From Lentimicrobium saccharophilum (GTDB lineage Bacteria > Bacteroidota > Bacteroidia > Bacteroidales > Lentimicrobiaceae), in contig NZ_DF968183.1 in the NCBI RefSeq assembly GCF_001192835.1, positions 868,001-932,000 on the forward strand: a stretch of DNA of 64,000 bases. The letters run 5' to 3'. Below the pieces are notes generated by a model that did no database searches, was not told where the DNA came from, and was given only the letters and a program-made list of their open reading frames with translations. Position 1 is the first letter of the stretch; each line of letters starts with the position of its first letter. Positions 4,921 to 52,925 of the stretch are shown piece by piece. The position numbers and the translations under genes are program-made.

Positions 4921-5829
4921 ATGTTTTACACAGCACAACCCATGATAAGGTACTCAATCAAAGATCTGGAAAAACTTACCGGCATCAAGGCCCACACGAT
5001 CCGGATCTGGGAGAAAAGGTATCAACTGATAGAACCTGAGAGAACATCGACCAACATCAGGTACTATTCTGACAACGACCTGAAAAAATTGCTGAACGTC
5101 TCCATACTTAACCGCAATGGTCTTAAGATTTCCAACATTGTCAATATGGGCAATGAGGAAATAAACGAAAGGATCATGGAGATATCAGAGACTTCCTACG
5201 ATCACGACAACCAGATTGAACAACTTATTGTTGCCATGATCGATTTTGATGAAGTCAGGTTTGAACGGGTGCTCACTACTTCTATCATCAAATCGGGATT
5301 TGACGATACTGTTATCAACCTGCTTTATCCCTTCTTTGAAAAGATTGGCATACTCTGGCAGATCGGCACCATATTTCCGGCCCAGGAACATTTTGTCTCC
5401 AATATTATCAGACAAAAACTGATCATCGCGATCGACGGACAGAACAACCCGCTGAAACCGGATACCAAATGCATACTGATGGCCCTGCCATCCGGAGAGT
5501 GGCATGAATTGGGACTGTTATTCTATTATTACCTTGCCAGGAAAGCTGGATTACGGGTTATTTACCTGGGGCAGTCGGTTCCCTTTGAAGATCTCATCGA
5601 AGTGAGCAGGAAACAAACCGTTGATCTTTTCTTTACTTCCATGACAACCCCTCTGACCCAGAAAAAGTATTCCGAATATATCCAGCAGTTATCTCTGGCT
5701 TTCAGCGAAAAGCAGGTATTTGTTACAGGCTATCAAACAAAGGAATATCCTGTTGAGCTGCCCGGGAATGTCATCAGGATTGAATCACCCGAGCATTTCA
5801 CGGAAATGCTGAAATCGCTTCATTCCTGA
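4921..5829 (+). CDS. MerR-family regulator with cobalamin-binding domain (CarH/LitR-like)
   Basis: 302 residues. The MerR winged helix is at about 9-78 (YSIKDLEKLTGIKAHTIRIW, wing NIRYYSDNDL). A B12-binding helical cap follows at about 90-170, then a Rossmann B12-binding fold at about 180-300. The cap has W followed by nine residues and EHF, where light-sensing CarH proteins have Wx9EHE. The lower-ligand motif (E/D)xHxxG is present as EWHELG. Known relatives are repressors released by light or by loss of adenosylcobalamin. Light or B12 response here is inferred; the EHF variant leaves open whether photochemistry is retained. The start could be the second Met (residue 8). Confidence 0.82.
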   Translation: MFYTAQPMIRYSIKDLEKLTGIKAHTIRIWEKRYQLIEPERTSTNIRYYSDNDLKKLLNVSILNRNGLKISNIVNMGNEEINERIMEISETSYDHDNQIEQLIVAMIDFDEVRFERVLTTSIIKSGFDDTVINLLYPFFEKIGILWQIGTIFPAQEHFVSNIIRQKLIIAIDGQNNPLKPDTKCILMALPSGEWHELGLLFYYYLARKAGLRVIYLGQSVPFEDLIEVSRKQTVDLFFTSMTTPLTQKKYSEYIQQLSLAFSEKQVFVTGYQTKEYPVELPGNVIRIESPEHFTEMLKSLHS

Positions 5830-13401: not shown

Positions 13402-16400
13402 TTATTTTTTACTGAAATCCATATCCGCCATTCTGCGGTAGCTGTAGTAACGCCATTTGGCATTCTCCTCAGCAGCTGCAAAGAGTTCATTAGCTTCCTT
13501 CGGGAAGGACTTCTTCAGTGAAGTATACCTTACCTCAGAGTCAAGGAATGACTGGAATTTGGTAAAATCAGGTTCCTTTGAATCAAGCTGGAACGGATTC
13601 TTTCCTTCTTCTTCCAGCAGCGGGTTATACCGGTACAGGCTCCAGTAACCGGCCTCTACAGCGTGGGCCTGCTGATCCTGTGCCTTACCCATTCCATTGC
13701 GGAGCCCGTGATTGATACAGGGCGAATAGGCGATGATGAGTGAAGGTCCGGGATAAGCTTCTGCTTCACGCAGGGCTTTGAGGTATTGTGTCTGATTGGC
13801 GCCCATGGCTACCTGGGCAACATAAACGAATCCATAACTCATGGCCATCATACCCAGATCTTTTTTCCTGACTTTCTTGCCGCTTGCAGCAAACTTGGCA
13901 ACAGCACCCACCGGAGTTGATTTTGAAGCCTGTCCACCGGTGTTGGAATACACTTCGGTATCAAGTACAAGAATGTTTACATCTTCACCCGATGCGATCA
14001 CGTGGTCCAGTCCACCGTAACCGATATCATAAGCCCAACCGTCACCGCCAAACATCCAGACCGATTTTTTGACGAAATACTGTTTCAGGGATAGCAGTTC
14101 CTTTGCAACATCGGAGGTCTCTTTTTCCAGCATTGCAAGCACCCTTGGTGAAACTTCACGTGATTTTGCAGCATCATTGCGGCCATCAATCCATTCCTGG
14201 CAGGCAGCCTTGAGTTCAGCATTGTAATTACCTTCAAGGATAAGCTTCATGCGAAGGGCAATTCTTTCGCGCAACTTCGATACGGCAGTTGCCATTCCGA
14301 AACCATATTCTGCATTGTCTTCAAAGAGGGAGTTGGCCCATGCCGGACCTTCGCCCTTTGCATTGACGGTGTATGGTGTTGACGGAGCTGAACCACCATA
14401 GATGGATGAACATCCGGTAGCATTGGCTACCATCATCCGGTCTCCATAGAGCTGGGTAATCAGCTTGATGTAGGGAGTTTCACCGCAACCGGCACAGGCG
14501 CCCGAAAACTCGAACAATGGCTGTGCAAACTGACTGTTTTTAATATTCTGCTCTTTGTTTGCGATGGTATCCTTGTATGAAACATTCTTTGAAATAATGT
14601 TCCACAGCTTATCCTGCTCCATTTGCGATTCGAGGGGCTCCATAACCAATGCCTTGGTTTTGGCCGGACATACATCCACGCAATTGCCGCAGCCGGTGCA
14701 GTCAAGCGGACTGAGCTGAATACGGAACTGCAGCCCATCAAAAGTTTTCGGAATGGCTTTCAATGCAGGGGTACCTTCCGGCAACAGTTTCATCTCGTTC
14801 TCATCAATCAGGAAAGGACGGATGCAGGCGTGCGGACAAACATAAGCACATTGATTACACTGAATACAGTTGTCAGGTATCCACTGAGGCACGTGAACGG
14901 CAATACCCCGCTTTTCATAGGCGGTAGTACCTGCCGGGAAAGTTCCATCTTCACGGCCGAGGAATGCACTTACCGGCAAATCATCACCCTTCATAGCGTT
15001 GATGGGCATCACCACATTCTTAATAAAATCGGGCACATCCACTTCGACGGAAACCTTTTCACCGGACAGCGATTTCCAATCTGCCGGAATATCAATTTTT
15101 GTCACTTCACCGCCACGATCGATTGCTGCATGATTCATGCGGACAATCTCTTCTCCCTTGCGGCCAAAGTCTTTCACGACCGCCTTTTTCATGTAATCAA
15201 CGGCGGTCTCGTAAGGAATAACCCCTGAAATACGGAAGAATGCCGACTGCATAATGGTGTTGGTGCGTCCGCCCAGACCGATCTCTTCAGCGATCTTCGT
15301 AGCATTGATTATATAGAAGGCAATATCATGATCAGCCATGTAGCGCTTCATGTAGTCAGGAACATGCTGCTTGGTTTCTTCAACATCCCAGATGCTGTTG
15401 AGCAGGAATGTACCGCCGTTTTTCAGGCCTTTGAGCATATCGTATTTCTCGAGGTATGCCGGCACGTGGCAGGCTACAAAGTCAGGGGTGTTTACAAGGT
15501 AGGGCGAACGGATGGGTTTGTCGCCGAAACGCAGGTGCGAAGTTGTAACACCTCCGGACTTTTTGGAGTCGTAAGCAAAATATGCCTGACAATATTTATC
15601 GGTGGTTTCACCAATAATCTTGATGGAATTCTTGTTGGCGCCCACGGTTCCGTCAGCACCTATGCCGTAAAACTTACCCTGGAAAGTTCCTTTGGGGGCG
15701 AGGTCAATTTCGGGAAGCAACGGCAGTGACAGGTAGGTTACATCATCAACAATACCAACGGTAAATCCGTTTTTCGGCTCGTTGCTCTTAAGATTATTGA
15801 TCACGGAAACGATCATCGAAGGAGTGGTATCCTTTGAACTGAGGCCATAACGGCCACCAATGATCAATGGTTTTACCGCATGGTTGTAGAAAAGATCCTT
15901 CACATCAAGGTAAAGCGGCTCACCATTGGCGCCGGGCTCCTTGGTACGATCGAGCACACAGATGCGTTTGACCGACTTCGGCATTACATTGAAGAAATAC
16001 TTTGCCGAGAAAGGTCTGTAGAGGTGTACGGAAACCAGGCCGAGTTTTTCCCCTTTGGAATTCAGGTGGTCAATCACTTCCTTGATGGTTTCGGTAATGG
16101 AACCCATGGCTACCAGCACGTTTTCGGCATCAGCAGCACCATAATAGGTAAAAGGATGGTATTCGCGTCCGGTTAATTTGCTGATTTGCTGCATGTAGCT
16201 CTCAACGATGTCGGGAAGGGCATTGTAGAATGGATTTGCAGCTTCGCGTGACTGGAAGTATATATCCGGATTCTGGGCGGTTCCGCGGGTTACGGGATGC
16301 TCAGGATTCAGCGCGCGGTCGCGGTAGGCCTGAAGGGCTTCCCAGTCGATCATCGGAGCGAGGTCTTCATTCGAAGGCGCTTCCACTTTCTGGATTTCAT

Positions 16401-40783: not shown

Positions 40784-41968
40784 CTAAATAAAAGTCAGGG
40801 CCACTTCCTTCAGAAACTTATCCTCCAGCAGCCGTGCAATCCTTTTCACCACAGTGCGACGGATTTCCAGTTCAACCGGCAGACTTGGATCCTGATGGGC
40901 GATATTGATGCGCGTACCGATGATAAAATGAATTTCATCGCTTTCGATAAGCATTTTTACAATCCGGTCGGCAGGGCCTTTGGTGAGGCGGGTAGAACTG
41001 TTAAAACCTTTGAGTATCTCGGTAACCTTTCCCAGGGTAAGAATTCCCTCTGTAACCAGGTCAACGCCCTGCATCAGCGAGATTGGCGGCAGGTCGGGAT
41101 CGTCGAAGTCGAAAGTATCTTCAATGCTGCGCTTCAGCTCCCTGGCAATAATATCCGCGGTGGTTGCGCCGCAGATGATCTTCTTGCCGTCGAACTGGTC
41201 CACCCTGCGGGCAAACTCGCTGTCATTGCTTTCCTCAAATGGCGGGCCCGTGCACACCAGCATCTTTCTGGGCTCTCTGAAATAGATTACGCCGCAACTG
41301 GTATCATCTTTACTCAGGTATCCATCATTTACGTGAGCCATATTCACTACTTTATGGGCAAGTTGCAAAGCTGAAATATCGGGTTCATGGTTAACCAGTT
41401 CCAATACATACTGCTGCACGCTGTCGCGCCCCCAGCCAAAAAGAAACTTGCCTCCGCCAAGCCCCGACTGGGCGACACCGTCACTGAAAAAGATGATCCG
41501 ATCTTCCTTTTCCGGAACAAATTCACAACTCTTAAGTTCTTTCCCTGCACTCTTGCCGCCTTCAAGCATCACACAGGTCCACTCGGGTTCAAATATCTTC
41601 TTCCCACGCAAAACAATGGTTTGCGGATTATCATACTCAAGTATTCTCACCTTGCCATCAAATTCTATATCAATAATGGTAAAAGTGGAGTAACTCATCT
41701 TTCGCTCGCTGCATTCCGGCAACGTATTCATGATGATCTCGGCAATGCGGTGCATTTCTTTATGCTCAGCCGTGAAATTCAACGCCATGGTAGCCGTAAG
41801 GGTCGCCAGCATATTTGCCTTTACCCCGTGCCCCATGCCATCAGACAGAACCGCCACAATGCGGTTTTCCTCATTGATCCGTCTTGAAAGGAATACATCA
41901 CCACAGATGCGCGATTCATGATGATTTTTAAGCTCCGCGTTGACCTCGATGTAAAACCTGTTATCCAT
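40784..41968 (-). CDS. SpoIIE/PP2C-type serine phosphatase of the hydrogenase island
   Basis: 394 residues. The SpoIIE phosphatase domain fills about 1-230, with metal-binding Asp residues in VAVLSDGMGHG (42-48), IIFFSDGVAQ (about 160) and KDDTSCGV (about 222). The C-terminal region (about 235-394) is a conserved extension (GPPFEES, ICGATTADII, INIAHQDPSLPVELEIRR) found in phosphatases beside sensory hydrogenases. It lies 9 bp downstream of the PAS hydrogenase homologue, so the two form a sensor-effector pair: the sensor may control dephosphorylation of an unidentified target (inference). Confidence 0.85.
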   Translation of the reverse strand: MDNRFYIEVNAELKNHHESRICGDVFLSRRINEENRIVAVLSDGMGHGVKANMLATLTATMALNFTAEHKEMHRIAEIIMNTLPECSERKMSYSTFTIIDIEFDGKVRILEYDNPQTIVLRGKKIFEPEWTCVMLEGGKSAGKELKSCEFVPEKEDRIIFFSDGVAQSGLGGGKFLFGWGRDSVQQYVLELVNHEPDISALQLAHKVVNMAHVNDGYLSKDDTSCGVIYFREPRKMLVCTGPPFEESNDSEFARRVDQFDGKKIICGATTADIIARELKRSIEDTFDFDDPDLPPISLMQGVDLVTEGILTLGKVTEILKGFNSSTRLTKGPADRIVKMLIESDEIHFIIGTRINIAHQDPSLPVELEIRRTVVKRIARLLEDKFLKEVALTFI

Positions 41969-41977
41969 GCGCTTAGC

Positions 41978-43840
41978 TTACTTTTTGGCTGCCTTGTGCG
42001 ACTCAATAATTGAATTGAGCATGCGCTCCGTTTTCGCGGCGCCTTCACCAAGCAGAAATGCAATTTTCTGGACCAGGTCAAGATTCTCATCAATCACTTC
42101 GGTGACCCTGTGGATTACTTCTTCTTTGCGGACTTCCGGCAGGTACATATCGCGCAGCACAGCGCCGGCGATTTTCCCTTTCCTGATCGAAAACACTGAA
42201 ACATTCAGAAGGCGGTCGCCAAGATGCACATCGCGGTTTACCACATTCTCGTTGGTAGTAAGGACTGCAGTAAAGAGTTTATAAAACTGGAAAGGAAGCA
42301 GGGTTTTCAGATCCGCTCCAACCAGCCCGGGTATGATTTCATTGATTTCTTCGGCATCTTCGCCCAGCGTATTGATAAAACTCTGATTCGACTCTATCAC
42401 CTTCAGGTTCTCATCCACAATAACTATCGCACTGGGCAGTTTCTGAAGCATGGATGACGTTCTTTCAAGGGCCTCCTGTGATGCCTGTTGCTCCTGACGC
42501 GCTTTGCGTTCGGACTCAAGCAGGGCTTCCTGGGTTTTGGCCAGTTTTTCATTGGTCAGCTTGAGGGTTCTGATAAAATCGTGCTTGCTTTTCAGCGAAT
42601 AAGTTATACACATGTCGGTCTTTGTCAGCCCCTTGGCAACATTCACGGCAAAATCCCTGCACGACTCGTAGCCACAGGCACCACACCCGAGCTTATCCTC
42701 ACTGTTTTGCTTGCCGATCACTTTCAGGATTTCCTCAACTTTTTCTTCGCTTGGCTGAGGCAAACGCTGATCATCGACGGAGAATTCCGCTTTAAAGTCG
42801 GTCAGGTTGCTGTGTTTCTTACATGCCTTTTCCCATGTTTTCAGGTCAAAATTCTTCAGCTTTTTATTGGCATAATCCGTTACCAGAGTTTTGCGCGCAT
42901 ACTTTTTACCGCCACGTGAAGTTCCCGGTCCCATTAAACAACCTTCGCAATAGAACAGGTTAAAATGCTTACGGATAAAATCAATGGATGATTCAAATTC
43001 ACGGATGGCCTCCAGCACATTGTCTTTCCCTTCCGCAGTGATTACACTTCCCTGCATCAGATCCTCATCCAGGCCGGCTGCCTGAAGAATTCCGTTACTG
43101 ACTGCGTAAAGCGATCCTTTATACCCAAGCGGCGGGTCAAAATCGGAATATTCAACCGTGCTTTCCTTAATGTTAAACTCCGCGAACAACTGCCTCAGTT
43201 CCACAAACGTAAGCACAGCATCAACCTTTGCATCGCCTTCAAACCGAAGGGCTTCATCCTTGGCTCCGATACAGGGGCCTATGTAAACCACTTTGAGATC
43301 CTTGCCATAAAGCTGACGGGCAATCTGTGCGGTAGCAATCATCGGACTGATGATGGGTGCAAGGTTACCAAGCAGATCAGGATGGAATTTTTCTATAAGC
43401 GCTACAATGGGCGGGCAGTTGGTGGTAATATAATACTTTCCGAGAAATTTGGTAAACAACTCACGGTATTCGGCCGCGACCAGATCAACCCCGAATGAAA
43501 CCTCATTTACGTATGAAAATCCGAGTTCACGGATCATGCGCACAAATTTCCTGTAGTCAGTTATATCGTCAAACTCCCCTGAAATACTGGGTGCGACAAT
43601 GGCAACAGCTTTTTCTCCCGAAGTCAGGATTTTCTTCACATCCTCGCAGGAATCCCTGTAAGTGATGGCCTGAGGTGCACATACCTGAAGGCAACTACCG
43701 CAGCCAATGCAACGGCCGTGATCAACCTCCGGCGCTTCCTGGTTTGCCTTTACCTGAATGGCATTCACCGGGCAGGCACGAACACATGCATAACACACCT
43801 TGCACTTCACCTTATCTATGTTAATCAGCGGAGGTTTCAT
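41978..43840 (-). CDS. Sensory-type [FeFe] hydrogenase homologue with PAS domain (HydS-like)
   Basis: 620 residues. Two 4Fe-4S motifs lie at 13-60 (CKVCYACVRACP, CIGCGSCLQVCAP). The H-cluster-like domain spans about 75-345. Motif 1 is TTNCPP (N141, C142), motif 2 GPCIGAK (C190), and motif 3 YCEGCLMGPG (C298, C301). Then come a CGACGYESC 4Fe-4S domain (about 390-420), a coiled coil (425-470) and a PAS domain (about 475-570). Canonical enzymes have CC in motif 1 and CxxxC in motif 3; here Asn replaces the proton-relay Cys, and Tyr297 holds the usual first-ligand place, with a Cys one residue later. No catalytic turnover is assumed; an H2 or redox sensor acting on the adjacent phosphatase is likely. 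Confidence 0.88.
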   Translation of the reverse strand: MKPPLINIDKVKCKVCYACVRACPVNAIQVKANQEAPEVDHGRCIGCGSCLQVCAPQAITYRDSCEDVKKILTSGEKAVAIVAPSISGEFDDITDYRKFVRMIRELGFSYVNEVSFGVDLVAAEYRELFTKFLGKYYITTNCPPIVALIEKFHPDLLGNLAPIISPMIATAQIARQLYGKDLKVVYIGPCIGAKDEALRFEGDAKVDAVLTFVELRQLFAEFNIKESTVEYSDFDPPLGYKGSLYAVSNGILQAAGLDEDLMQGSVITAEGKDNVLEAIREFESSIDFIRKHFNLFYCEGCLMGPGTSRGGKKYARKTLVTDYANKKLKNFDLKTWEKACKKHSNLTDFKAEFSVDDQRLPQPSEEKVEEILKVIGKQNSEDKLGCGACGYESCRDFAVNVAKGLTKTDMCITYSLKSKHDFIRTLKLTNEKLAKTQEALLESERKARQEQQASQEALERTSSMLQKLPSAIVIVDENLKVIESNQSFINTLGEDAEEINEIIPGLVGADLKTLLPFQFYKLFTAVLTTNENVVNRDVHLGDRLLNVSVFSIRKGKIAGAVLRDMYLPEVRKEEVIHRVTEVIDENLDLVQKIAFLLGEGAAKTERMLNSIIESHKAAKK

Positions 43841-43868
43841 AAATCAACTCTTTCCTTCTTTTAGATCA

Positions 43869-44171
43869 TCAAACACCCGAAGATGTCTTCCCGAAAATTC
43901 CATCCAGGATCATGATCACTTTGTCTTCATTCAGACCGGTATATTCTTTACCATCTATGCTGATAAGCGGCCCCTGATCGCAACTGCTGAAACAATGGGC
44001 ACCATGAAAATACACCAGATGCCTCAGGTTTCTCTCAGTCAGGTATTGCTCGATCACTTTAACCAACCGTTTGTTCCCCCTTGAAAAGCAGGAACTACCC
44101 AAACAGATCTGGATATCAATTCTGTTTTCCACCAAAGTTTGTATTAAACTATAACCAAACCGGATTAACAT
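43869..44171 (-). CDS. 2Fe-2S thioredoxin-like ferredoxin
   Basis: 100 residues. Four cysteines with the thioredoxin-fold spacing: CLGSSC (Cx4C, about residues 23-28) and, about 30 residues on, CFSSC (Cx3C). This is the HndB/NuoE-C-terminal type of 2Fe-2S protein found in [FeFe] hydrogenase loci. It probably passes electrons to or from the hydrogenase or its sensor. First gene of the minus-strand unit with the PAS sensor (28 bp downstream) and phosphatase, sharing the divergent Rex-site region. The exact start is uncertain. Confidence 0.82.
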   Translation of the reverse strand: MLIRFGYSLIQTLVENRIDIQICLGSSCFSRGNKRLVKVIEQYLTERNLRHLVYFHGAHCFSSCDQGPLISIDGKEYTGLNEDKVIMILDGIFGKTSSGV

Positions 44172-44388
44172 CCGGAGTATTAACTTCCCCTACCGGGAGC
44201 TGCCGGCAAAAGAAAAGATATCTGATGCCAACAACCATTGCGAAATTAAAGCAAAAATGCATCTGATGCAACTTCTCCTTTTTCAGGACATTGCATACAA
44301 TTACCGCTACTGTTAACCAAAACCTGCTGCACCGTTGATTTCCGCTTATCCTGACAAAACAAAATTACTACTTTTTTATAAAAATATC

Positions 44389-44421
44389 TGTTAAAGAAAT
44401 AACAATGTTAAAAAAATAACA
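44389..44421 (+). promoter_or_regulatory. Two tandem Rex operators
   Basis: TGTTA-N6-TAACA occurs twice: 44389-44404 and 44406-44421, separated by one base, 17 bp centre to centre. This agrees in arms and spacing with the known Rex consensus TTGTTAANNNNTTAACAA of clostridia and Thermotogales. rex itself lies in the operon downstream. The sites overlap the expected -33 region of hydC, so NAD+-bound Rex would block polymerase and NADH would relieve it; the divergent sensor unit may be co-controlled. Confidence 0.75.
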
Positions 44422-44453
44422 GTAATTTTATCCTCAGAAAATCATAAAAGCAT

Positions 44454-44478
44454 GCGTCCGGGCTTTTTTTCCGGATGC
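44454..44478 (+). other. Leader hairpin before hydC
   Basis: GCGTCCGG (44454-44461) pairs with CCGGATGC (44471-44478), one G-T pair, with a T-rich loop. It ends 36 nt before the hydC start and may affect mRNA stability or early termination. Confidence 0.4.
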
Positions 44479-44514
44479 AAGTATAAAATTTATACAATTG
44501 AATATCAGTTAACT

Positions 44515-44985
44515 ATGGCTGACAAGATTGATGAGATCATAAAAAAGCACATAAATGTGCAGCGCGACAGCCTGTTGCCCTTATTGCAGGACATCCAGAA
44601 TGAATTAGGCTATCTGTCGGAAGAATCGATCAACAGGATTGCGCGGTCACTGGATCTGCCGACAAGCAAGGTATATGGTGTTGCCACATTTTATGATCAG
44701 TTCCGCTTTGAACCCAGGGGGCGGTTCCATATACAGATTTGCCACGGCACAGCCTGCCACATCAATAATTCTGCCCGCATTATCCAGGAAGCTGAACGGC
44801 TTCTGAAAATAAAACAAGGTCAGACCACCCGTGACGGCATATTCAGCCTTGAAGTTGTTAACTGCATGGGCGCCTGTGGATTGTCACCGGTGATGGCTGT
44901 AAACGATATTTATTATCATGGTATTGTACCGGGTGATCTGAAAGAAATTATTGACCAGTGTAAAGAAAAAATCAGCCGGCAATGA
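44515..44985 (+). CDS. hydC: NAD-dependent [FeFe] hydrogenase, NuoE-like subunit
   Basis: Start at 44515 (MADKIDEIIKKHINVQRDSL) matches NuoE family N-termini; an earlier in-frame ATG falls in the leader hairpin. 156 residues. A helical N-terminal part leads into the thioredoxin-fold 2Fe-2S domain with CHGTAC (Cx4C, about 79-84) and CMGAC (Cx3C, about 120-124). It is the gamma subunit of the HydABC complex and overlaps hydB by 4 bp (ATGA), implying coupled translation. Confidence 0.92.
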   Translation: MADKIDEIIKKHINVQRDSLLPLLQDIQNELGYLSEESINRIARSLDLPTSKVYGVATFYDQFRFEPRGRFHIQICHGTACHINNSARIIQEAERLLKIKQGQTTRDGIFSLEVVNCMGACGLSPVMAVNDIYYHGIVPGDLKEIIDQCKEKISRQ

Positions 44986-46928
44986 ACACACTGACAACAA
45001 TGAGTTTAAAAGAACTGGCCGGGCATTTACTGCTCAATGCGCATCCGGGCAGCGATCCGGCTACCGAAGAATACATTAACAGACTCAGGCGCGACACTGT
45101 TGACAAGCCGGTAATTTATGTCGGCACCGGCACCTGCGGAATGGTAGCAGGAGCTAAAGGAACACTGAAAGCCATCCGCCAGTACCTGACCGAAAAAAGC
45201 ATTGACGCGGAAATCATTGAGGTGGGTTGTATCGGACTGTGTATTCATGAGCCGATGGTTGATGTTCAGCTTCCGGGTAAACGAAGGATTGCCTTCTCAT
45301 GCATTACCGAAAACAAGGTTGAACCTCTGCTGGATGAGATCCTGAATTATGAAGTTCCTGCTGAAAACCTGCTCGGACAATACTCGCATCCTAACCATGA
45401 GGCCTGGGACGGAGTAAAGTTATTGGGGGAAATGCCTTACTTCAGGCTTCAAAACAGACTCGTACTCAGAAACTGCGGGATTATCAATCCATACTCCATC
45501 GAAGAATATATTGCCCGGGGGGGATACCGCTCATTGGTAAGGGTACTTCGGAACTATGCACCGGACAAGGTTTGCGATATCATTGAAGAGAGCGGACTCA
45601 GAGGCCGTGGCGGAGGGGGGTTCCCTACCGGCCGCAAATGGAAAACCGCGCTTAACACTCAGGACGATGAGCGTTACCTGATTTGCAACGGCGATGAAAG
45701 TGATCCCGGAGCCTTTATGGACAGAGCTATTTTCGAAGGCGACCCCCATAAACTGATTGAAGGAACCGCCATTGCAGCATATGCTGTAAATGCGAAGAAA
45801 GCCTATATTTACGTCAGGGCAGAATATTCGATTGCCGTTGACAGGCTCAGGCAGGCCATCCAACAGGTAAATGATGCCGGGTTGCTTGGCTACAACATCC
45901 TGAACAGCGGTTACAACCTGCAGATTCAGATACGTGAAGGAGCCGGCGCTTTCGTATGCGGCGAAGAAACCGCGCTGATTTCAAGCATAGAAGGCAAAAG
46001 AGGAACTCCCAGACCAAAGCCACCCTTTCCCTCCATCCGGGGTTTATTCGGCAAGCCAACCGTTGTTAACAATGTGGAAACATTGGCCAATGTTCCGGCC
46101 ATCATCGAGAACGGACCAAGCTGGTTTAGCTCGATGGGAACTTCCACCAGCAAAGGAACCAAAGTTTTTGCGCTGGCAGGGCGGATAGCAATTACCGGAC
46201 TTGCCGAAGTTACCATGGGTACTTCCCTGAAAGACCTGATCTACATCATAGCAGGAGGGGTAAGAGACGGAAAGCGACTGAAAGCCATACAACTGGGTGG
46301 TCCTTCGGGCAGCTGTCTGCCGGAAAAAAGCCTGGATGTGCTGATCGACTACGAAGCCCTGCTCAAAGCCGGTACAATTATGGGCTCGGGAGGACTGGTA
46401 GTAATGGATGAAGATACCTGCATGGTAGACATTGCAAAGTTTTTTACCGATTTCCTGCAACGTGAAAGCTGCGGCAAATGCATCCCCTGCCGTGAAGGCT
46501 CCCGGCGCATGCATGAAATCATGGAAAATATCACCCGCAGGCCCGTAAACGAAAGCGGACATGAAACCCTGGAACGGTTCAAAGGGGTCATGCAGCTTGA
46601 AAATCTTGCTGATGTAATCAAAGATACTTCCCTTTGCGGGCTCGGACAAACAGCGCCTAACCCACTGTTGAGCGCCCTTAAATATTTCAGGGAAGAATTT
46701 GAGGAGCATATCTTCGACAGAAAATGCCGTGCGGGAGTTTGTAAAGACCTGAAGGTATATTACATAGATGTTGAAAAATGCACAGGGTGTACCGCATGTG
46801 CCAAAAAGTGTCCGACCACTGCTATTATCGGCTCACCCCGGGTACCGCATTTCATCATCGAAGATAAATGTATCGGATGCGGAATCTGTTTCGATGTATG
46901 CAAATTCGTCGCTGTTTTTGTGAAATGA
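44982..46928 (+). CDS. hydB: NAD-dependent [FeFe] hydrogenase, NuoF-like flavin subunit
   Basis: 648 residues. N-terminal 2Fe-2S thioredoxin-like domain at about 35-130. The NuoF core follows with the NADH/FMN glycine motif GLRGRGGGGFPTG (about 206-218), CNGDESDPGAF, and GAFVCGEETALI. The SLBB region comes next, then the 4Fe-4S motif CGKCIPCREG (near 497). Two C-terminal 4Fe-4S ferredoxin motifs end the chain (CTGCTACAKKC, CIGCGICFDVC). This domain order is that of HydB in electron-bifurcating or NAD-linked hydrogenases. It exchanges electrons among NADH, ferredoxin and HydA. The sequence alone does not prove bifurcation. Confidence 0.95.
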   Translation: MNTLTTMSLKELAGHLLLNAHPGSDPATEEYINRLRRDTVDKPVIYVGTGTCGMVAGAKGTLKAIRQYLTEKSIDAEIIEVGCIGLCIHEPMVDVQLPGKRRIAFSCITENKVEPLLDEILNYEVPAENLLGQYSHPNHEAWDGVKLLGEMPYFRLQNRLVLRNCGIINPYSIEEYIARGGYRSLVRVLRNYAPDKVCDIIEESGLRGRGGGGFPTGRKWKTALNTQDDERYLICNGDESDPGAFMDRAIFEGDPHKLIEGTAIAAYAVNAKKAYIYVRAEYSIAVDRLRQAIQQVNDAGLLGYNILNSGYNLQIQIREGAGAFVCGEETALISSIEGKRGTPRPKPPFPSIRGLFGKPTVVNNVETLANVPAIIENGPSWFSSMGTSTSKGTKVFALAGRIAITGLAEVTMGTSLKDLIYIIAGGVRDGKRLKAIQLGGPSGSCLPEKSLDVLIDYEALLKAGTIMGSGGLVVMDEDTCMVDIAKFFTDFLQRESCGKCIPCREGSRRMHEIMENITRRPVNESGHETLERFKGVMQLENLADVIKDTSLCGLGQTAPNPLLSALKYFREEFEEHIFDRKCRAGVCKDLKVYYIDVEKCTGCTACAKKCPTTAIIGSPRVPHFIIEDKCIGCGICFDVCKFVAVFVK

Positions 46929-46954
46929 CCTTAGTGGATCGAAATAAATAAAAC

Positions 46955-48679
46955 ATGAACTTCCCCATTGAAGTAAATAATAAAACAATCGTTGCCCGAA
47001 GGGGAGAAACCATTCTGGAAGCGCTGGAGCGTAACGGAATAAAGGTCCCTACCCTGTGCCACATGCAGGGCCTCTATCCTACCGGCTCCTGCCGCATGTG
47101 CGTTGTAGAGGTGGAAGGCAAGCACAACCTTATTACGGCCTGCTCTTACCCTGTGGAGGAATGGATGAAGATCAGGACACACTCCCCACGGGTGGTAAAT
47201 GCCAGAAAAACCAATGTGGAATTGCTTTTGAGCAACCATCCCGACGATTGTCTGTATTGCGAACGAAACGGCAACTGCGAACTTCAAAACTTTGCAGAAC
47301 AGCTTAATGTCAGGGAACGCAGGTTCACCGGCAAAAAGAATAAATACAAAACCGACCCTTCCGGATCCAGTATTGTGCGCGACCCAGCCAAATGCATCCT
47401 TTGCGGCCGTTGTGTCAGAACCTGTGAAGAGATTATCGGCGCCGCCACCCTCGGATTTATCGGAAGAGGAAACACAACCATCATCGGGCCGGCTTTTAAC
47501 AAACAGCTCAACCTGTCAAGCTGCATCACCTGCGGACAATGTATCATGGCCTGCCCTACCGGCGCTTTACACGAAAAAAGACATTCATCCGACCTGCAAA
47601 GCGCGTTGCACAACAAAGACATCCATGTGGTAATGCAATACTCTCCTACCATTGCCGTGAGCCTGGCTGAAGAGTTCGGGCTGAAGGCCGGTAAGGAGAT
47701 CAACGGGCTTCTGAATGCAGCGCTGAGAAAAACAGGTTTTGATAAAGTATTCGACAGCACTTTCGGCGCCGATATTTACATAATGGAACTTGCCGCCGAA
47801 TTGGAGCACCGACTTAAAAACAGCCTTACGTTTCCCATGTTCAGCAGTGATTGTCCTGCATGGATCAAATATGTGGAGCAATGGCATCCTGAACTTATTC
47901 CCGATATTTCCACCTGCAAATCGCCCCAGCAGATGCTCGGAGCCATCATCAGCGAATACTATACCAAAACCTACCATATCAACATTGACAATCTCTATAC
48001 GGTTTCGGCAATGCCCTGTACGGCGAAGAAGTTTGAGGCACAGCGTGAGCAAATGACCCACAAGGGGATCAGTGATGTTGATGCGGTTCTGACCACCCGG
48101 GAACTGGCTCAGTTTATACGCCTCAACGGCATCGACATTCATCAGGGCGAACCGGAACTTGCTGATTTTCCCTTTCACATCCGCAGCTCGGCAGGAAAAC
48201 TGTTCAGTGTTTCCGGTGGAGTAACCGAAGCGCTGATACGGACCCTTCACTTCAGGCTTACAGGCAAGGAGCTGCAACAGCTGCGCATCACCGAACTCAG
48301 AAGTAACAAAGATTACAAGGAAGTAAAACTGAAGATCGGGGAATTTAAACTCGGCTTTGCCGCCGTAAGCACTGTAAAGCAGGCTGCGGTATTGATTGAA
48401 GAAATCAGAAACGGGCGCAACGACCTTCATTTTATCGAGGTGATGGCCTGCCCCATCGGATGCGTTAACGGAGGCGGTCAACCCATTGTAGATGATCAGA
48501 CGGCCCTGAAAGCAAGAATTAAAGCGGTATATGACCTGGATGAAAAAGAGCCGATCAGAGTGGCACATAAAAACCCGGCCGTAATAGAATTGTACAAGGA
48601 GTTCCTCGGCGAGCCGTTGGGTGAACTCTCCATGAAACTGCTGCATACTTCTTACAAAAAAAGAGATGTCTCATTGTAA
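46955..48679 (+). CDS. hydA: [FeFe] hydrogenase catalytic subunit, with altered proton-relay residues
   Basis: 574 residues, aligning without gaps to Clostridium pasteurianum CpI numbering at every motif checked. It has an N-terminal 2Fe-2S domain (CRMCVVEV), a His/Cys 4Fe-4S motif (DCLYCERNGNC), two 4Fe-4S motifs (CILCGRCVRTC, CITCGQCIMAC) and the H domain. All H-cluster ligands are present: C300 (SSDCPAW), C355 (MPCTAKK), C499 and C503 (MACPIGCVNGGGQP). Oddly, residue 299, the proton-relay Cys, is Asp (GAT at 47849-47851) and residue 279, Glu in CpI, is Leu; E282, R286 and S319 are kept. It reversibly makes or oxidises H2 with HydB/HydC. Confidence 0.95.
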   Translation: MNFPIEVNNKTIVARRGETILEALERNGIKVPTLCHMQGLYPTGSCRMCVVEVEGKHNLITACSYPVEEWMKIRTHSPRVVNARKTNVELLLSNHPDDCLYCERNGNCELQNFAEQLNVRERRFTGKKNKYKTDPSGSSIVRDPAKCILCGRCVRTCEEIIGAATLGFIGRGNTTIIGPAFNKQLNLSSCITCGQCIMACPTGALHEKRHSSDLQSALHNKDIHVVMQYSPTIAVSLAEEFGLKAGKEINGLLNAALRKTGFDKVFDSTFGADIYIMELAAELEHRLKNSLTFPMFSSDCPAWIKYVEQWHPELIPDISTCKSPQQMLGAIISEYYTKTYHINIDNLYTVSAMPCTAKKFEAQREQMTHKGISDVDAVLTTRELAQFIRLNGIDIHQGEPELADFPFHIRSSAGKLFSVSGGVTEALIRTLHFRLTGKELQQLRITELRSNKDYKEVKLKIGEFKLGFAAVSTVKQAAVLIEEIRNGRNDLHFIEVMACPIGCVNGGGQPIVDDQTALKARIKAVYDLDEKEPIRVAHKNPAVIELYKEFLGEPLGELSMKLLHTSYKKRDVSL

Positions 48680-48688
48680 GCTTAAAAA

Positions 48689-50716
48689 ATGACAACCATG
48701 AATCCCGGAGATACAACTTCAAAACGGCCACTCGTTACCACCATCAGGGAGCGGTGCCGGGTTTGCTACACCTGTGTGCGGGAATGTCCGGCCAAGGCCA
48801 TCAAAATCAGCAATGGCCAGGCAGAAGTTATGTCGGAAAGGTGTATCGGATGCGGCAATTGTATAAAGGTGTGCAGTCAGAATGCAAAGGTTTTCCGGAA
48901 AGAGATTGATAAAGTGAGGGAACTGATCGACAGCAAACAAAGGGTTGCTGCCATTGTCGCACCAAGCTTCCCGGCCGAGTTTTCAGAAATAAAGAATCAC
49001 CGGCTGCTGGTATCATTGATTCGTGCCCAGGGATTCAGATATGTTTCAGAAGTTTCATTCGGTGCAGACCTGGTTGCCGGGGAATACAAGAAGATCATAC
49101 AATCGAAGCGTTATCCTCCGGTAATCTCTTCAGATTGTCCGGCCATTGTAAACTACATCGAACACTATCATCCTGACCTGGTAGGATCACTGGCAAACAT
49201 CGTTTCGCCAATGGTTGCCATGACCCGGGTAATGCGCAGGAAATACGGCACAGACCTTAAAATTGTTTTCATCGGGCCCTGCATAGCAAAAAAGGATGAA
49301 TCGTCCGAAGTGGATGCCGCCATCACCTTCAGGGAACTCAGGGAGATGATTAACCAGACAGGGCTGAAACCTGCAGAGGTAAGTCCCACTGAGTTTGACC
49401 CTCCTTTGGGGGGCAAAGGATCCATATTTCCTGTTAGCAGGGGATTGCTCAACACAATGGAGGTTGAAGAAGATATTTTTGAAAGAAATGTGATTGTAGC
49501 CGACGGACGCAGCGATTTTCAGGAAGCCATCAGGGAGTTTGAGAGCGGACAGATTGCCCAGGAACACCTGGAATTACTTTGCTGCGAAGGCTGTATTATG
49601 GGCCCCGGCATGTCTCCTTATCCCTTCCTTTCATCACTCAGCCGCAGATTCAGAAAAAGGGCCAGTGTAAGCGACTATGTAATTCACAAGATGGAAACCA
49701 TGGATATGGACCAGTGGAAAAAAGATTACGAGGAATTTTCGGATCTCGATCTTTTCTGTGAATTTACAAAGCGCGACATTCGTTACAGCAGACCTGACAA
49801 CGAAGAAATCAGAAAGGCGCTGAATAAAATGGGAAAATTTGAGCCGCACGACCATCTGGATTGCGGAGCCTGCGGATACGAATCATGCGAAGAGCATGCC
49901 ATTGCGATTATCCGGGGGTTGGCCGAACATGAAATGTGCCTCCCTTATACCATCGAGAAACTTCATAACTATATCAGGGAATTAAATATTTCGAATGAAA
50001 AGCTTGCTAATACCCAGGAAGCTTTAAGACAATCGGAAAAACTTGCGGGAATGGGCCAGCTTTCAGCCGGCATTGCCCATGAGCTGAATAATCCCCTGGG
50101 AATCATTACTATGTACAGCAACATCCTGAAGGATGAAGCCCCCGCTGAAGATCCGATCCGCAAGGACCTGGACCTGATTGCAGAGCAGGCCGAACGCTGT
50201 AAAAAAATAGTAGGCGGATTGCTTAACTTTGCACGCAAAAACCAGGTCAACTTTACAGATGTCAATATCAACCAGTTGATGGAGCATTCGATAAGCTCGG
50301 TTATCGTTCCTGAAAACATCAAAATATCGCTTGAATCCAAGGTCAACAATACTGAGATTAAACTGGATTACGATCAGATGACCCAGGTGTTCACCAACCT
50401 GCTGAAAAATGCCATCGAGGCCATGCCTGAAGAGGGCGGACTGATCACTGTTGAAATGACCGATTCCAGCGACGAAATAACGGTTAATATTACCGACACC
50501 GGAACAGGAATCGAAGAAGAGAATATGAATAAACTCTTCACGCCCTTTTTTACCACCAAGCCCATTGGAAAAGGAACCGGTCTTGGATTGCCGATTATCT
50601 ATGGAATTGTCAAAATGCACAAGGGGAACATCACCTTCAGGTCGAATGCCGATAAAAACAAGGGAGTAACGGGGACCACGTTTACCATTACACTTCCAAG
50701 AATGGCAATGACTTGA
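48689..50716 (+). CDS. Soluble hydrogenase-like sensor histidine kinase
   Basis: 675 residues, no membrane segment. Two 4Fe-4S motifs come first (CRVCYTCVREC, CIGCGNCIKVC), then an H-cluster-like domain (about 85-345): SSDCPA (D149, C150), GPCIAKK (C198) and CCEGCIMGPG (C298, C299, C302). A CGACGYESC 4Fe-4S domain follows near 400, then a coiled coil and HisKA with the phospho-His in AGIAHELNNPLG (about 466). The HATPase_c domain (NLLKNAIEAM, DTGTGIEEEN, GTGLGLPI) closes the chain. Unlike the PAS homologue it has Cys at all four expected ligand positions. A cytoplasmic H2 or redox sensor feeding the next genes is inferred. Confidence 0.9.
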   Translation: MTTMNPGDTTSKRPLVTTIRERCRVCYTCVRECPAKAIKISNGQAEVMSERCIGCGNCIKVCSQNAKVFRKEIDKVRELIDSKQRVAAIVAPSFPAEFSEIKNHRLLVSLIRAQGFRYVSEVSFGADLVAGEYKKIIQSKRYPPVISSDCPAIVNYIEHYHPDLVGSLANIVSPMVAMTRVMRRKYGTDLKIVFIGPCIAKKDESSEVDAAITFRELREMINQTGLKPAEVSPTEFDPPLGGKGSIFPVSRGLLNTMEVEEDIFERNVIVADGRSDFQEAIREFESGQIAQEHLELLCCEGCIMGPGMSPYPFLSSLSRRFRKRASVSDYVIHKMETMDMDQWKKDYEEFSDLDLFCEFTKRDIRYSRPDNEEIRKALNKMGKFEPHDHLDCGACGYESCEEHAIAIIRGLAEHEMCLPYTIEKLHNYIRELNISNEKLANTQEALRQSEKLAGMGQLSAGIAHELNNPLGIITMYSNILKDEAPAEDPIRKDLDLIAEQAERCKKIVGGLLNFARKNQVNFTDVNINQLMEHSISSVIVPENIKISLESKVNNTEIKLDYDQMTQVFTNLLKNAIEAMPEEGGLITVEMTDSSDEITVNITDTGTGIEEENMNKLFTPFFTTKPIGKGTGLGLPIIYGIVKMHKGNITFRSNADKNKGVTGTTFTITLPRMAMT

Positions 50717-50770
50717 TTAACAGCGACATGAAAGAAATAAAAATAAACTTTGTTTTTTAAACGCAGTACA

Positions 50771-51157
50771 ATGAAAAAGACTATTCTGATTGTGGATGAT
50801 GACATGGATTACCTGTTTCAGATGAAGATGAAGGTGGAACAGTTCGGATTCGACACCATTACTGCCGATGGGCAGAAAGAGGCAGAGTCGATCATCGAAA
50901 CTGTCAGGCCCGATCTGGCAATCCTTGACCTGATGATGGAAAGTGACGACAGCGGTTTTATCCTGGCATACAAGATCAAGCGCATGTATCCTGATGTACC
51001 GATCATTATTGCAACCGCGGTAACGGCGGAAACCGGGATTACATTCGATATCAATTCAGATGAAAACAAGCAATGGATAAAAGCGGATCTGTTCCTCGAC
51101 AAGGGAATACGGGCGGATCAGCTTCAGCGCGAAATCAACAAACTTCTAAAGATTTAA
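50771..51157 (+). CDS. Stand-alone response-regulator receiver
   Basis: Start at 50771 (MKKTILIVDDD); an ATG seven codons earlier is less likely. 128 residues, one REC domain: acidic pocket VDDDMDY, phospho-acceptor Asp in LAILDLMM (about residue 54), conserved Thr in IATAVT (about 82) and Lys in FLDKGI (about 112). It has no output domain, so it must act by protein contact, as in a phosphorelay. It sits 54 bp after the hydrogenase-like kinase and 3 bp before the receiver-kinase hybrid. Confidence 0.9.
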   Translation: MKKTILIVDDDMDYLFQMKMKVEQFGFDTITADGQKEAESIIETVRPDLAILDLMMESDDSGFILAYKIKRMYPDVPIIIATAVTAETGITFDINSDENKQWIKADLFLDKGIRADQLQREINKLLKI

Positions 51158-51160
51158 GGA

Positions 51161-52288
51161 ATGGCATCATACAAAGTATTGGTAGTTGATGATGAGATGG
51201 GCATCCGTATGGGCACCCGGAGAATTCTGCAAAATTTCAAAGTTGATTACCCGTTCATGGATGAGCACATAGAGTATGTTGTGCTGGAAGCCCCCACCGG
51301 AGAAGAAGCCATTGAGATCATCGACCGTGAAATGCCCGACATCATTCTTCTTGACAATAAGCTTCCGGGAATTCAGGGAATTGAAGTCCTGGAATATGTA
51401 AAGAAAAAACTTTACGATATTGTGGTGGTAATGATTACCTCCTACGCATCGCTGGAACTGGCAGTTAAAGCCACCCGCGACGGGGCCTATGACTTTATAC
51501 CAAAACCTTTTACCCCTCAGGAGTTGCGCAGCTCACTCGAGAATATTACAAAACAGCTCTTCCTTAAGCGGATGACGCAAAAAATGAACAAGGAAGGCAA
51601 ACTGATCAGGTTCCAGTTTCTTTCAGTGCTTTCGCATGAGCTCAAAGCCCCCATCAATGCCATAGAAGGGTATCTGAAAATTATGCAGGATAAGCAATTC
51701 GGCGACAAGATCACATCCTACAATGAGATGATTGACCGCTCCCTGGAACGGATCAGCGGTATGCGCAGCCTGATTATGGACCTGCTTGACCTGACTAAGA
51801 TTGAATCAGGAAAACCCGTGCAGCATATGCAGTTGGTGGATATCACAAAAATAGCAGGCATTTCAGCGGATACGATGCGACCATACGCCATTCAGAAGGA
51901 CGTTGACATTTATCTCAACACCAAAGAGCCGGTTATGATGGAAGCAGATGCCAAAGAGATCGAAATTATTTTCAATAATCTGATATCCAATGCGGTAAAA
52001 TACAATAAACAGGGAGGTCGTGTTGATGTATTCGTACACCAGGGAAAGAACAACATCAAACTCAAGGTTGCTGACTCCGGCATTGGCATGACAGAAGAAG
52101 AGAAAAGCACACTTTTCCAGGACTTTGTTCGAATTAAAAATCCAAAAACCAAACACATTACAGGCTCCGGTCTGGGCCTTTCAATACTCAAAAAAATTGT
52201 TGAGATGTATCACGGAGACATAGAGGTTGAAAGTATCCCTGACCAAGGCACTACATTTACCGTAATTCTTCCGACAGAAAACTCTTAA
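51161..52288 (+). CDS. Receiver-histidine kinase hybrid (REC-HisKA-HATPase)
   Basis: 375 residues. N-terminal REC at about 4-125 (VDDEMGIRMG, Asp in IILLDNKLPG, Thr/Ser in MITSYASL, Lys in FIPKPFTP). HisKA has the phospho-His in LSVLSHELKAPINAIEGYL (about residue 157). HATPase_c has NLISNAVKYN, DSGIGMTEEE and GSGLGLSILKK. No membrane segment. The order suggests the upstream kinase phosphorylates this REC to control the second kinase. Its own target is not obvious, since no DNA-binding response regulator is in the cluster. Spaced 3 bp from the receiver and 13 bp from rex. Confidence 0.9.
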   Translation: MASYKVLVVDDEMGIRMGTRRILQNFKVDYPFMDEHIEYVVLEAPTGEEAIEIIDREMPDIILLDNKLPGIQGIEVLEYVKKKLYDIVVVMITSYASLELAVKATRDGAYDFIPKPFTPQELRSSLENITKQLFLKRMTQKMNKEGKLIRFQFLSVLSHELKAPINAIEGYLKIMQDKQFGDKITSYNEMIDRSLERISGMRSLIMDLLDLTKIESGKPVQHMQLVDITKIAGISADTMRPYAIQKDVDIYLNTKEPVMMEADAKEIEIIFNNLISNAVKYNKQGGRVDVFVHQGKNNIKLKVADSGIGMTEEEKSTLFQDFVRIKNPKTKHITGSGLGLSILKKIVEMYHGDIEVESIPDQGTTFTVILPTENS

Positions 52289-52301
52289 AAGCAAACTGCA
52301 A

Positions 52302-52925
52302 ATGATAAAAAGGCTTCCCGATAAAACAGTCGAAAGACTCAGCCAGTACCGTCGCGCCCTGCTGAATTATTATTCAGGGGGTAAACACCACATTTTCTCG
52401 CATGAGATTGCAAGTTTATTGCACATCACGGCGGTGCAGGTGAGGCGCGACATTATGCTGATAGGCTATACCGGTACCCTGAGGCAGGGATATGATGTTA
52501 AGGAATTAATTGATATTATCGGGAAAATCATCGATACCAGAGAAGGGCAGAAAGTAGCGGTAATAGGTATCGGTAACCTGGGACGCGCCATTATGGGTTA
52601 TTTCAGCGGCAAACGGACCAAACTGACCATTGTGGCAGCATTTGACAGCAATCCAGAAAAAGTAAACCGCATATATACCGGTGTGCAATGCTATCATAGT
52701 GATCAGATGATTGAAATCATCAAGCGCGAGGGAATATCCATTGCAGTAATTTCGGTTCCTGGCGAGATGGCAGCGCAGGTAGCCGAAGAACTGGTGATGG
52801 CCGGGATCAGGGGAATTCTCAACTTTTCCCCCAAAGCACTGAATGTCCCTCCCCATGTTTATCTTCAGGAGTATGATATGATTACAAGCCTCGAAAAGAT
52901 TGCCTATTTCGTCAAGAAACCCTGA
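52302..52925 (+). CDS. rex: Redox-sensing transcriptional repressor Rex
   Basis: 207 residues, normal Rex length. The winged helix is at about 1-80 (LPDKTVERLSQYRRALLNYY, IASLLHITAVQVRRDIMLIG). A Rossmann NAD(H) domain follows with VAVIGIGNLGRAIMGY (about 86-101) and the FDSNPEK acidic end of beta 2 (about 116). A domain-swapped C-terminal helix is expected at the end. It binds DNA when NAD+ is high and releases it with NADH. Two matching operators lie at the head of this operon (44389-44421), so it is probably autoregulatory and controls hydCBA. Confidence 0.95.
   Translation: MIKRLPDKTVERLSQYRRALLNYYSGGKHHIFSHEIASLLHITAVQVRRDIMLIGYTGTLRQGYDVKELIDIIGKIIDTREGQKVAVIGIGNLGRAIMGYFSGKRTKLTIVAAFDSNPEKVNRIYTGVQCYHSDQMIEIIKREGISIAVISVPGEMAAQVAEELVMAGIRGILNFSPKALNVPPHVYLQEYDMITSLEKIAYFVKKP

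Follow-up and report, generated by a model that had tools for sequence, protein, structure and literature searches.

How does a 'sensory' [FeFe]-hydrogenase hand on its signal, when the genes around it encode two such sensors with different output partners and no response regulator that binds DNA? A 2022 review considered the sensory role of these proteins putative, physiological evidence being lacking (PMC8924675; statements on published work, here and below, refer to the accessible parts of the papers cited). The question is raised by a stretch of 64,000 nucleotides of Lentimicrobium saccharophilum (the window; G000:C2:868001-932000, from a genome of 4.51 Mb in two contigs). The window sequence contains an island of intact genes in two divergent units, with every open reading frame (ORF) at the coordinates of Table 1. 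The plus-strand unit encodes the hydrogenase subunits HydC, HydB and HydA, a histidine kinase with a hydrogenase-like domain (HKin), a lone receiver, a receiver-kinase and the repressor Rex, and the minus-strand unit encodes a SpoIIE-type phosphatase, a PAS-type hydrogenase homologue (HPAS) and the small protein Trx2Fe. An initial annotation had described two signalling proteins with a hydrogenase domain (H-domain) in one island, which the Pfam domains confirm, and had counted eleven genes, where there are ten.

We hold it to be just about probable that the island is a self-regulating unit of H2 metabolism. Rex, encoded by the last gene, would repress the divergent promoters at low NADH by binding to two operators 17 bp apart. 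HKin, a predicted cytoplasmic kinase with a hydrogenase-like sensor domain, would form a separate post-translational His-Asp relay with the lone receiver and the receiver-kinase, the output of which would run via protein contact. HPAS would control the SpoIIE phosphatase and thereby the removal of Ser/Thr phosphates, and an RsbW-like kinase, encoded beside the sensor HydSD in a second hydrogenase operon, would oppose that phosphatase. The 'opposite outputs' of the island are then probably those of SpoIIE and the RsbW-like kinase, not those of SpoIIE and the histidine kinase. In this scheme the predicted Rex arm is well supported at the level of sequence, the putative opposition of SpoIIE and the RsbW-like kinase is supported by co-occurrence, and only gene content speaks for the HKin relay as a separate arm. 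The island thus offers a testable wiring: transcription through a pair of Rex operators, a phosphorelay of three proteins and, for the phosphatase, a likely opponent kinase that can be named. The layout occurs widely among genomes of uncultured Bacteroidales and could therefore help to explain how fermenters of this kind respond to H2.

Rex and the tandem operators

Domains were assigned by Pfam and NCBIfam profile searches, which found no DNA-binding domain in the signalling proteins of the island. The claim that the island lacks a DNA-binding response regulator, and that Rex is its only DNA-binding protein, was thereby upheld. The region between the divergent units (44172-44451) contains the palindromes CTGTTAAAGAAATAACAA at 44388 and ATGTTAAAAAAATAACAG at 44405, with starts 17 bp apart. 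A tandem pair was defined as two sites that each match at least 10 of 14 consensus positions, with a sum of at least 22, and the pair at 44388-44422 is the sole one in the window. The island combines a Rex gene with a Rex-type palindrome upstream, the mark of a Rex regulon.

Related loci were collected with a four-row kinase alignment as query, and 80 named loci (L031-L110) were kept of at least 555 confirmed. Operators were scored in 66 loci, for which the presence of the receiver-kinase was an entry requirement, so that this set is circular with respect to that gene. Loci with Rex or SpoIIE nearby were called type I (n = 43, window counted) and those without either type II (n = 19), with four left unclassed. 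A tandem operator lies upstream of hydC in 33 of the 43 type I loci, in 0 of the 19 type II loci and in one of the four unclassed loci; Markov-shuffled upstream regions contained a tandem pair in 0 of 8600 cases. Considering all spacings from 9 to 59 bp in the type I upstream regions, 32 pairs were found at 17 bp and one at 49 bp. The complete set of loci (1.42 Mb) holds 35 tandem sites, 34 of which fall in the scored hydC upstream regions, and the 35th (L060), placed by position, is located directly before a hydC match.

A scan of the whole genome with at most three mismatches yielded three tandem pairs, against 0 for the reversed control pattern: that of the island, one before a glutamate dehydrogenase gene and one ahead of the operon that contains the RsbW-like gene. 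The corresponding single-site scan was noisy (35 sites versus 16 for the reversed control pattern). Within the genus, with positions matched by hand, every one of the 18 genomes with HPAS or HKin has the operator at the island, and all 12 genomes with the RsbW-like gene have it at a distance of about 0.5 kb ahead of that gene. In addition, all four [FeFe]-hydrogenase/sensor operons seen in the genome have paired Rex-like sites. We consider Rex the most likely DNA-binding output of the island and, judging from the operators in the divergent promoter region, better placed as a controller of transcription than as a target of phosphorylation.

Rex-like pairs of other spacing occur elsewhere in the genome. 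A second HydC-HydB-HydA set is preceded by a pair with a spacing of 42 bp, both sites of which match 14/14 positions of a degenerate consensus. A second HPAS-SpoIIE pair (HPAS2-SpoIIE2; L121 7156-15053, G000:C1:1727155-1735052) is located between the genes of an Fe-alcohol dehydrogenase and a Rex paralogue (Rex2) on the one hand and a group B hydrogenase on the other, and two Rex-like sites with a spacing of 20 bp precede this set. The tandem Rex-like operator of the glutamate dehydrogenase gene (L119 5164-6564) lies 29 bp upstream, which suggests that Rex may couple amino-acid metabolism to H2 production.

Conservation of the proposed histidine kinase relay

The kinase has its nearest named relatives in Bacteroidetes metagenome-assembled genomes and in one of Lentimicrobium, with 79-81% identity. 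Counting only those loci that have room for the gene on the contig, HKin is accompanied by HydA in 77/79 loci, by the lone receiver in 74/76, by the receiver-kinase in 68/69 and by Rex in 43/67, and SpoIIE was found in 33 of the 55 loci with room upstream. The exceptions for HydA and the receiver are L058 and L092. The gene order is common to dozens of Bacteroidales loci, which goes beyond chance and bears out the conserved co-occurrence that the initial annotation had asked to be checked. This shared order, the tandem operators and the association of SpoIIE with the RsbW-like gene (see below) all speak against an ordinary hydABC operon at which known kinase-linked (group C1) and phosphatase-linked (group C3) sensor genes with unrelated targets have clustered by chance; such an origin is quite unlikely, even though each kind of sensor, and a cluster with two of them, has been published before.

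L092 itself is a contig labelled Spirochaetia that carries HKin and the receiver-kinase and no lone receiver, and that groups with a Bacteroidetes row. It represents either a mislabelled bin or a transfer.

Type I loci resemble the window in having SpoIIE-HPAS and Rex. Type II loci have neither and carry an extra lone receiver of 164-204 amino acids upstream of hydC (19/19). In L042, for instance, this receiver (5203-5703) occupies the place of the phosphatase unit and, by eye, has a long insert before the last strand. In 48 loci the contig extends far enough on either side; 28 of these contain both SpoIIE and Rex and 18 contain neither, and the two discordant cases are L043 (SpoIIE alone) and L060 (Rex alone), where the SpoIIE side ends at the contig edge. 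A quick tree of HKin placed all 19 type II rows in one part of 39 rows, with six changes needed, at least four of which by well-supported branches. The joint absence of Rex and SpoIIE therefore does not represent many independent events. A Rex match above the cut-off was present elsewhere in 12 of 15 type II genomes (13 of 16 counting the genome of the type I locus L043).

HKin is thus found mostly in the company of the lone receiver and the receiver-kinase, even where the phosphatase or Rex is missing. The H-box His of HKin is kept in 80/80 rows, the phospho-acceptor Asp of the lone receiver in 75/75 and both the receiver Asp and the H-box His of the receiver-kinase in 72/72. It could be argued that the putative kinase acts on a DNA-binding response regulator encoded elsewhere, the lone receivers being phosphate sinks. 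Indeed, in 11 of the 19 type II loci (some of them near-copies) an ORF of the size of a receiver plus helix-turn-helix regulator is found 0.2-1.2 kb before the first receiver gene, and 7/7 of those scanned consist of Response_reg and GerE (NarL-type). However, these regulators are paired with their own HisKA_3 kinase in L084 and L106, the two cases scanned, and no such ORF was seen upstream in type I loci, where the region within about 2 kb past SpoIIE was examined. The adjoining regulator in relatives, which the initial annotation had named as evidence against itself, is hence found in part of the type II loci and not in that region of type I loci, and we regard a distant regulator as the output of HKin as unlikely. 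A LytTR regulator some kb downstream in L083 and a lone receiver downstream in L062, L075 and L087 were not taken as linked.

The phosphatase and its candidate opponent

Histidine kinases feed His/Asp phosphates, and SpoIIE/PP2C enzymes remove Ser/Thr phosphates. Because of this difference in chemistry, HKin and SpoIIE are not opposed without a further step. The distribution of the genes was compared over 247 related genomes of the order, using orthologue cut-offs of E at most 1e-150 (HKin), 1e-40 (SpoIIE) and 1e-20 (RsbW-like). HKin was found in 83 genomes, SpoIIE in 85 and the RsbW-like gene in 77. The RsbW-like gene and SpoIIE share 61 genomes where 26.5 are expected, the former being present in 61/85 genomes with SpoIIE versus 16/162 without; RsbW-like and HKin share 33 genomes where 25.9 are expected. 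Restricting the comparison to the 83 HKin genomes provides a partial control for owning this type of hydrogenase, and the RsbW-like gene is then found in 28/44 genomes with SpoIIE versus 5/39 without (Fisher, 1.7e-6). When each of 51 families is represented by a single genome, the RsbW-like gene is still more frequent with SpoIIE, at 15/25 versus 2/26 (7.6e-5). The phosphatase associates more strongly with the RsbW-like gene than with HKin. In ten genomes the RsbW-like gene and SpoIIE are at most 25 kb apart, and in four of these 1.7-3.8 kb. We also picked 20 regions from the 41 genomes that have SpoIIE and no HKin (SpoIIE-only); five of the 20 contain the RsbW-like gene too, all five together with HydSD, and in L138 HPAS, SpoIIE, the RsbW-like gene and HydSD are all encoded on one strand.

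The RsbW-like ATPase (139 amino acids; PF13581 3.8e-13; G000:C1:1130801-1131217) is the sole small protein among the 11 PF13581 matches in the genome, and its gene adjoins that of the H-domain sensor HydSD, in the second hydrogenase operon behind a tandem Rex operator. From this co-occurrence and context, the putative RsbW-like kinase is the most likely opponent of SpoIIE. The phosphatase itself retains the metal-binding Asp motifs in 34/34 rows, and its AlphaFold model (predicted local distance difference test score, pLDDT, of 87) has PP2C, SpoIIE and RsbX phosphatases as best matches in the PDB. Its alpha/beta extension at the C-terminus (residues about 235-394) is highly conserved and found no fold match of its own among the 50 Foldseek matches listed, all of which are PP2C folds. 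This extension may be the contact site for HPAS.

The operon of the RsbW-like gene (L122 12949-18980 and L123 3407-5816), located behind its tandem Rex operator, starts with an ORF for a DRTGG-like protein of 114 amino acids at L122 12949-13293 (matches under the cut-off). It continues with the RsbW-like ATPase, an H-domain protein without PAS, a second small DRTGG protein at 15113-15448, a PHP protein, a second small HATPase that matches PF02518 only, a protein of 132 amino acids without Pfam match, and HydB, HydA and HydC.

Genes for a PP2C phosphatase and an RsbW-like kinase, as in the switches of the RsbU/RsbW/RsbV type, are thus both present. Nevertheless, a classical STAS partner switch was rejected for this genome, as no lone STAS protein was found: the single PF01740 match is a protein of 588 amino acids, PF13466 had no match, and none of 12 genus relatives has a lone PF01740 protein. 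The substrate is therefore not a classical RsbV/SpoIIAA. In a switch of this type, an RsbV-type gene would stand directly before that of the RsbW type. In this genome it is the small DRTGG-like ORF that ends 8 bp before the RsbW-like gene, and by analogy of position it is a candidate substrate, as a lead only. A tentative and rather doubtful extension would be that the PAS-type sensor with SpoIIE and the group D-like sensor with the RsbW-like kinase drive the two directions of one STAS-free Ser/Thr cycle, perhaps on a DRTGG-like substrate, with both operons under tandem Rex operators and the third H-domain protein serving a separate His-Asp relay. If true, H2 and NADH would be read in four ways to set fermentation.

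According to the initial annotation, the HKin branch and the SpoIIE branch act oppositely on one phosphoprotein, perhaps HydB or Rex. The two modules do flank one hydABC and co-occur above chance (44 genomes versus 28.6 expected); they lie within 20 kb in 34 genomes, in 33 of these at a fixed 7.6-8.9 kb, and SpoIIE and Rex are linked over the 48 loci described above. However, besides the different phosphate chemistry, HKin is found without SpoIIE in 39 genomes and SpoIIE without HKin in 41. Moreover, type II loci retain HKin, the lone receiver and the receiver-kinase without Rex and SpoIIE, and since these loci fall in one part of the tree the Rex-SpoIIE link may reflect few events. Just three of the 20 SpoIIE-only regions (L129, L134 and L135) have Rex near SpoIIE. 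Convergence on one target was for reasons of chemistry and of separate modules across genomes rejected as the default, and we consider it very unlikely. The frequent joint occurrence of the kinase and phosphatase genes may nonetheless reflect some connection of the two arms. As a whole, the earlier interpretation is partly supported.

Returning to the self-regulating unit, a number of observations weigh against it. The co-occurrence of HKin and SpoIIE at a fixed distance is also predicted by the coupling just discussed. Ten of the 43 type I loci lack the tandem pair (L039, L040, L043, L047, L061, L077, L083, L099, L100, L104). In eight of them the sites are single or differ in spacing, and two are devoid of sites, L047 in spite of its Rex gene. 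The other one, L043, rather speaks for the unit, as it has HPAS and SpoIIE and the Rex gene is missing from the vicinity together with the operator. The spacing of 17 bp was spotted in the data before being tested, and only one of the 20 SpoIIE-only regions (L139) has such a pair, in addition to the scarcity of Rex near SpoIIE; the operator is hence tied to this type of island and not to every Rex-hydABC locus. HydCBA and the lone receiver occur without HKin in L129 (with Rex) and in L131 (with the receiver-kinase), so that the relay falls short of a strict unit; in L135 HydCBA and Rex are accompanied by neither HKin nor receivers. Finally, 24 of the 85 SpoIIE genomes lack the RsbW-like gene at the threshold used, and with other representatives per family its association with SpoIIE is weaker (12/23 versus 4/28, 4.4e-3).

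Sensor domains, published systems and features of the island

The Pfam domain Fe_hyd_lg_C was found in three island proteins, HydA (Table 1), HKin (2.9e-48) and HPAS (9.1e-41). HKin combines an H-domain and a histidine kinase in one chain, as in HydDB group C1. HPAS has the H-domain, the C-terminal Fe-S motif, the PAS domain and the adjoining gene of a Ser/Thr phosphatase that characterize group C3. In the window protein the PAS match is weak (PF00989 0.0036, under its cut-off). Within the HPAS family PAS_8 was matched by 27 of 36 members at E at most 0.1 (best 1.1e-6) and Fe_hyd_lg_C and FeS by all 36, and the HPAS model, with the secondary structure read by eye, has the strand/helix order of a PAS domain at residues 471-564.

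As suggested from the outset, the H-domains differ at ligand positions, named here by the CpI numbering. The position of the proton-transfer Cys is Asp in 79/80 HKin rows (motif 1 Asp-Cys-Pro) and Asn in 27/37 HPAS rows (motif 1 Asn-Cys-Pro). Motif 3 differs as well: HKin has C-x3-C in 76/80 rows, via a double Cys (Ser in four), and all 37 HPAS rows carry Tyr or Phe where the fourth cubane ligand is normally found, with a neighbouring Cys in 28 of them. HPAS2 and the group B enzyme of the same genome have C-x3-C in motif 3. HydA, with a NuoG-like N-terminal part and an H-domain, forms with HydB and HydC the trimeric composition of [FeFe] group A3; the canonical proton-transfer Cys of that group is replaced by Asp in the window protein. 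Since 30 of the 78 HydA rows lack this Cys (Cys 48, Ala 16, Asp 10, Glu 3, His 1), the hydrogenases adjoining these sensors are often atypical themselves.

Among sensory enzymes Cys, Ala, Pro and Ser are common at this position, and of the Cys replacements in prototypical enzymes only Asp retains activity (PMC10055695), for which reason HKin may be the better of the two at turning over H2, compared with HPAS. The replaced Cys in both proteins, the motif 3 of HPAS and the report that the H-cluster motifs of group C1 proteins of Hydrogenedentota were hardly findable (PMC11406978) could mean that the H-domains are devoid of an H-cluster, with their Fe-S clusters serving to sense redox state or oxygen in place of H2. 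Against this, none of the 80 HKin and 37 HPAS rows deviates at the Cys of motifs 1 and 2 or at the final Cys of motif 3, TmHydS and TamHydS turn over H2 without the proton-transfer Cys (PMC10055695, PMC8163306), and a gene for HydG follows that of Rex at a distance of 2.2 kb. Sensing without an H-cluster is in our view doubtful for the pair, and whether HPAS would carry a complete H-cluster is uncertain.

Several elements have been published before: the layout with two sensors, operons of hydABC and Rex, and either kind of sensor (PMC11406978, PMC5317091, PMC5037454, PMC6776011). In the BfuABC clusters with bfuT of sub-types IV and V, group C genes adjoin hydABC, one kind with PAS and one with His kinase, and in three Bacteroidota, Perlabentimonas, Tenuifilum and Williamwhitmania, bfuC has one bfuT upstream and bfuA the other downstream, as in the island (PMC11406978). 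That study called the meaning of the two bfuT genes unclear and filed similar kinase-fused proteins under C3 rather than C1; unlike here, phosphatase, receivers, Rex and operators are not named in its accessible text, and 'response regulator' and 'Rex' are absent from its main text. In Caldithrix abyssi (Cabys_3675-3679) Rex and a bifurcating hydABC share one operon with a candidate Rex site upstream, but the Rex gene comes first, one site was reported and a PAS/phosphatase arm is not mentioned in the part available (PMC5317091). The HydS cluster of Ruminococcus albus, from another phylum, has a PAS H-domain sensor and a putative Ser/Thr phosphatase and adjoins hydrogenase and alcohol/aldehyde dehydrogenase genes, a likeness to L121 of the window genome, whereas a histidine kinase relay is not mentioned in its accessible description (PMC6776011). 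HydDB lists C1 and C3 as separate classes, whereas in the island both output types flank one enzyme (PMC5037454). As to the group D sensor HydS of Thermoanaerobacter mathranii (PMC8163306), the group D-like protein of the window genome is encoded in another operon than the phosphatase. Literature searches, partly limited to titles and the starts of abstracts and with subscription papers outside their scope, returned no tandem operator, receiver pair or SpoIIE/RsbW-like link.

Table 1. Genes and operators of the island, with positions in the window
Feature	Position	Strand	Evidence
SpoIIE/PP2C-type Ser/Thr phosphatase, 394 aa (amino acids)	40784..41968	-	Pfam SpoIIE 3.4e-12
HPAS, phosphatase-linked group C-like sensor: two [4Fe-4S] motifs, [FeFe]-hydrogenase H-domain, extra Fe-S motif, coiled coil, PAS	41978..43840	-	Pfam, model; best Foldseek matches [FeFe]-hydrogenases
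Trx2Fe, thioredoxin-like [2Fe-2S] protein, 100 aa	43869..44171	-	PF01257 4.8e-10
Two tandem Rex-like operators, starts 17 bp apart, one base in common	44388..44422	.	12/14 and 11/14 consensus positions
HydC (NuoE-like)	44452..44985	+	PF01257 4.4e-49
HydB (NuoF-like flavoprotein)	44982..46928	+	Complex1_51K 1.2e-48, NADH_4Fe-4S 7.9e-29
HydA, group A catalytic subunit	46955..48679	+	Fe_hyd_lg_C 9.2e-79; TIGR02512 422 bits (cut-off 406)
HKin: two [4Fe-4S] motifs, H-domain, extra Fe-S motif, HisKA, HATPase_c	48689..50716	+	Pfam, NCBIfam
Lone receiver	50750..51157	+	Response_reg 6e-13
Receiver-HisKA-HATPase protein (receiver-controlled kinase)	51161..52288	+	Response_reg, HisKA, HATPase_c
Rex, NADH/NAD+-sensing repressor family	52302..52925	+	NF003995 197 bits (cut-off 126); PDB Rex 2.2e-36

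With respect to the remaining features, HydA scored 717 bits with NF040763, under the cut-off of 765. Matches in the PDB were ZraS and HydA for HKin, and the C-terminal part of Thermotoga HydA for Trx2Fe (1.3e-7). By eye, the likely true start of HydC is a later ATG near 44515, the lone receiver has an insert ahead of its last strand, and the two ORFs that follow Rex resemble RibF and a metallo-beta-lactamase.

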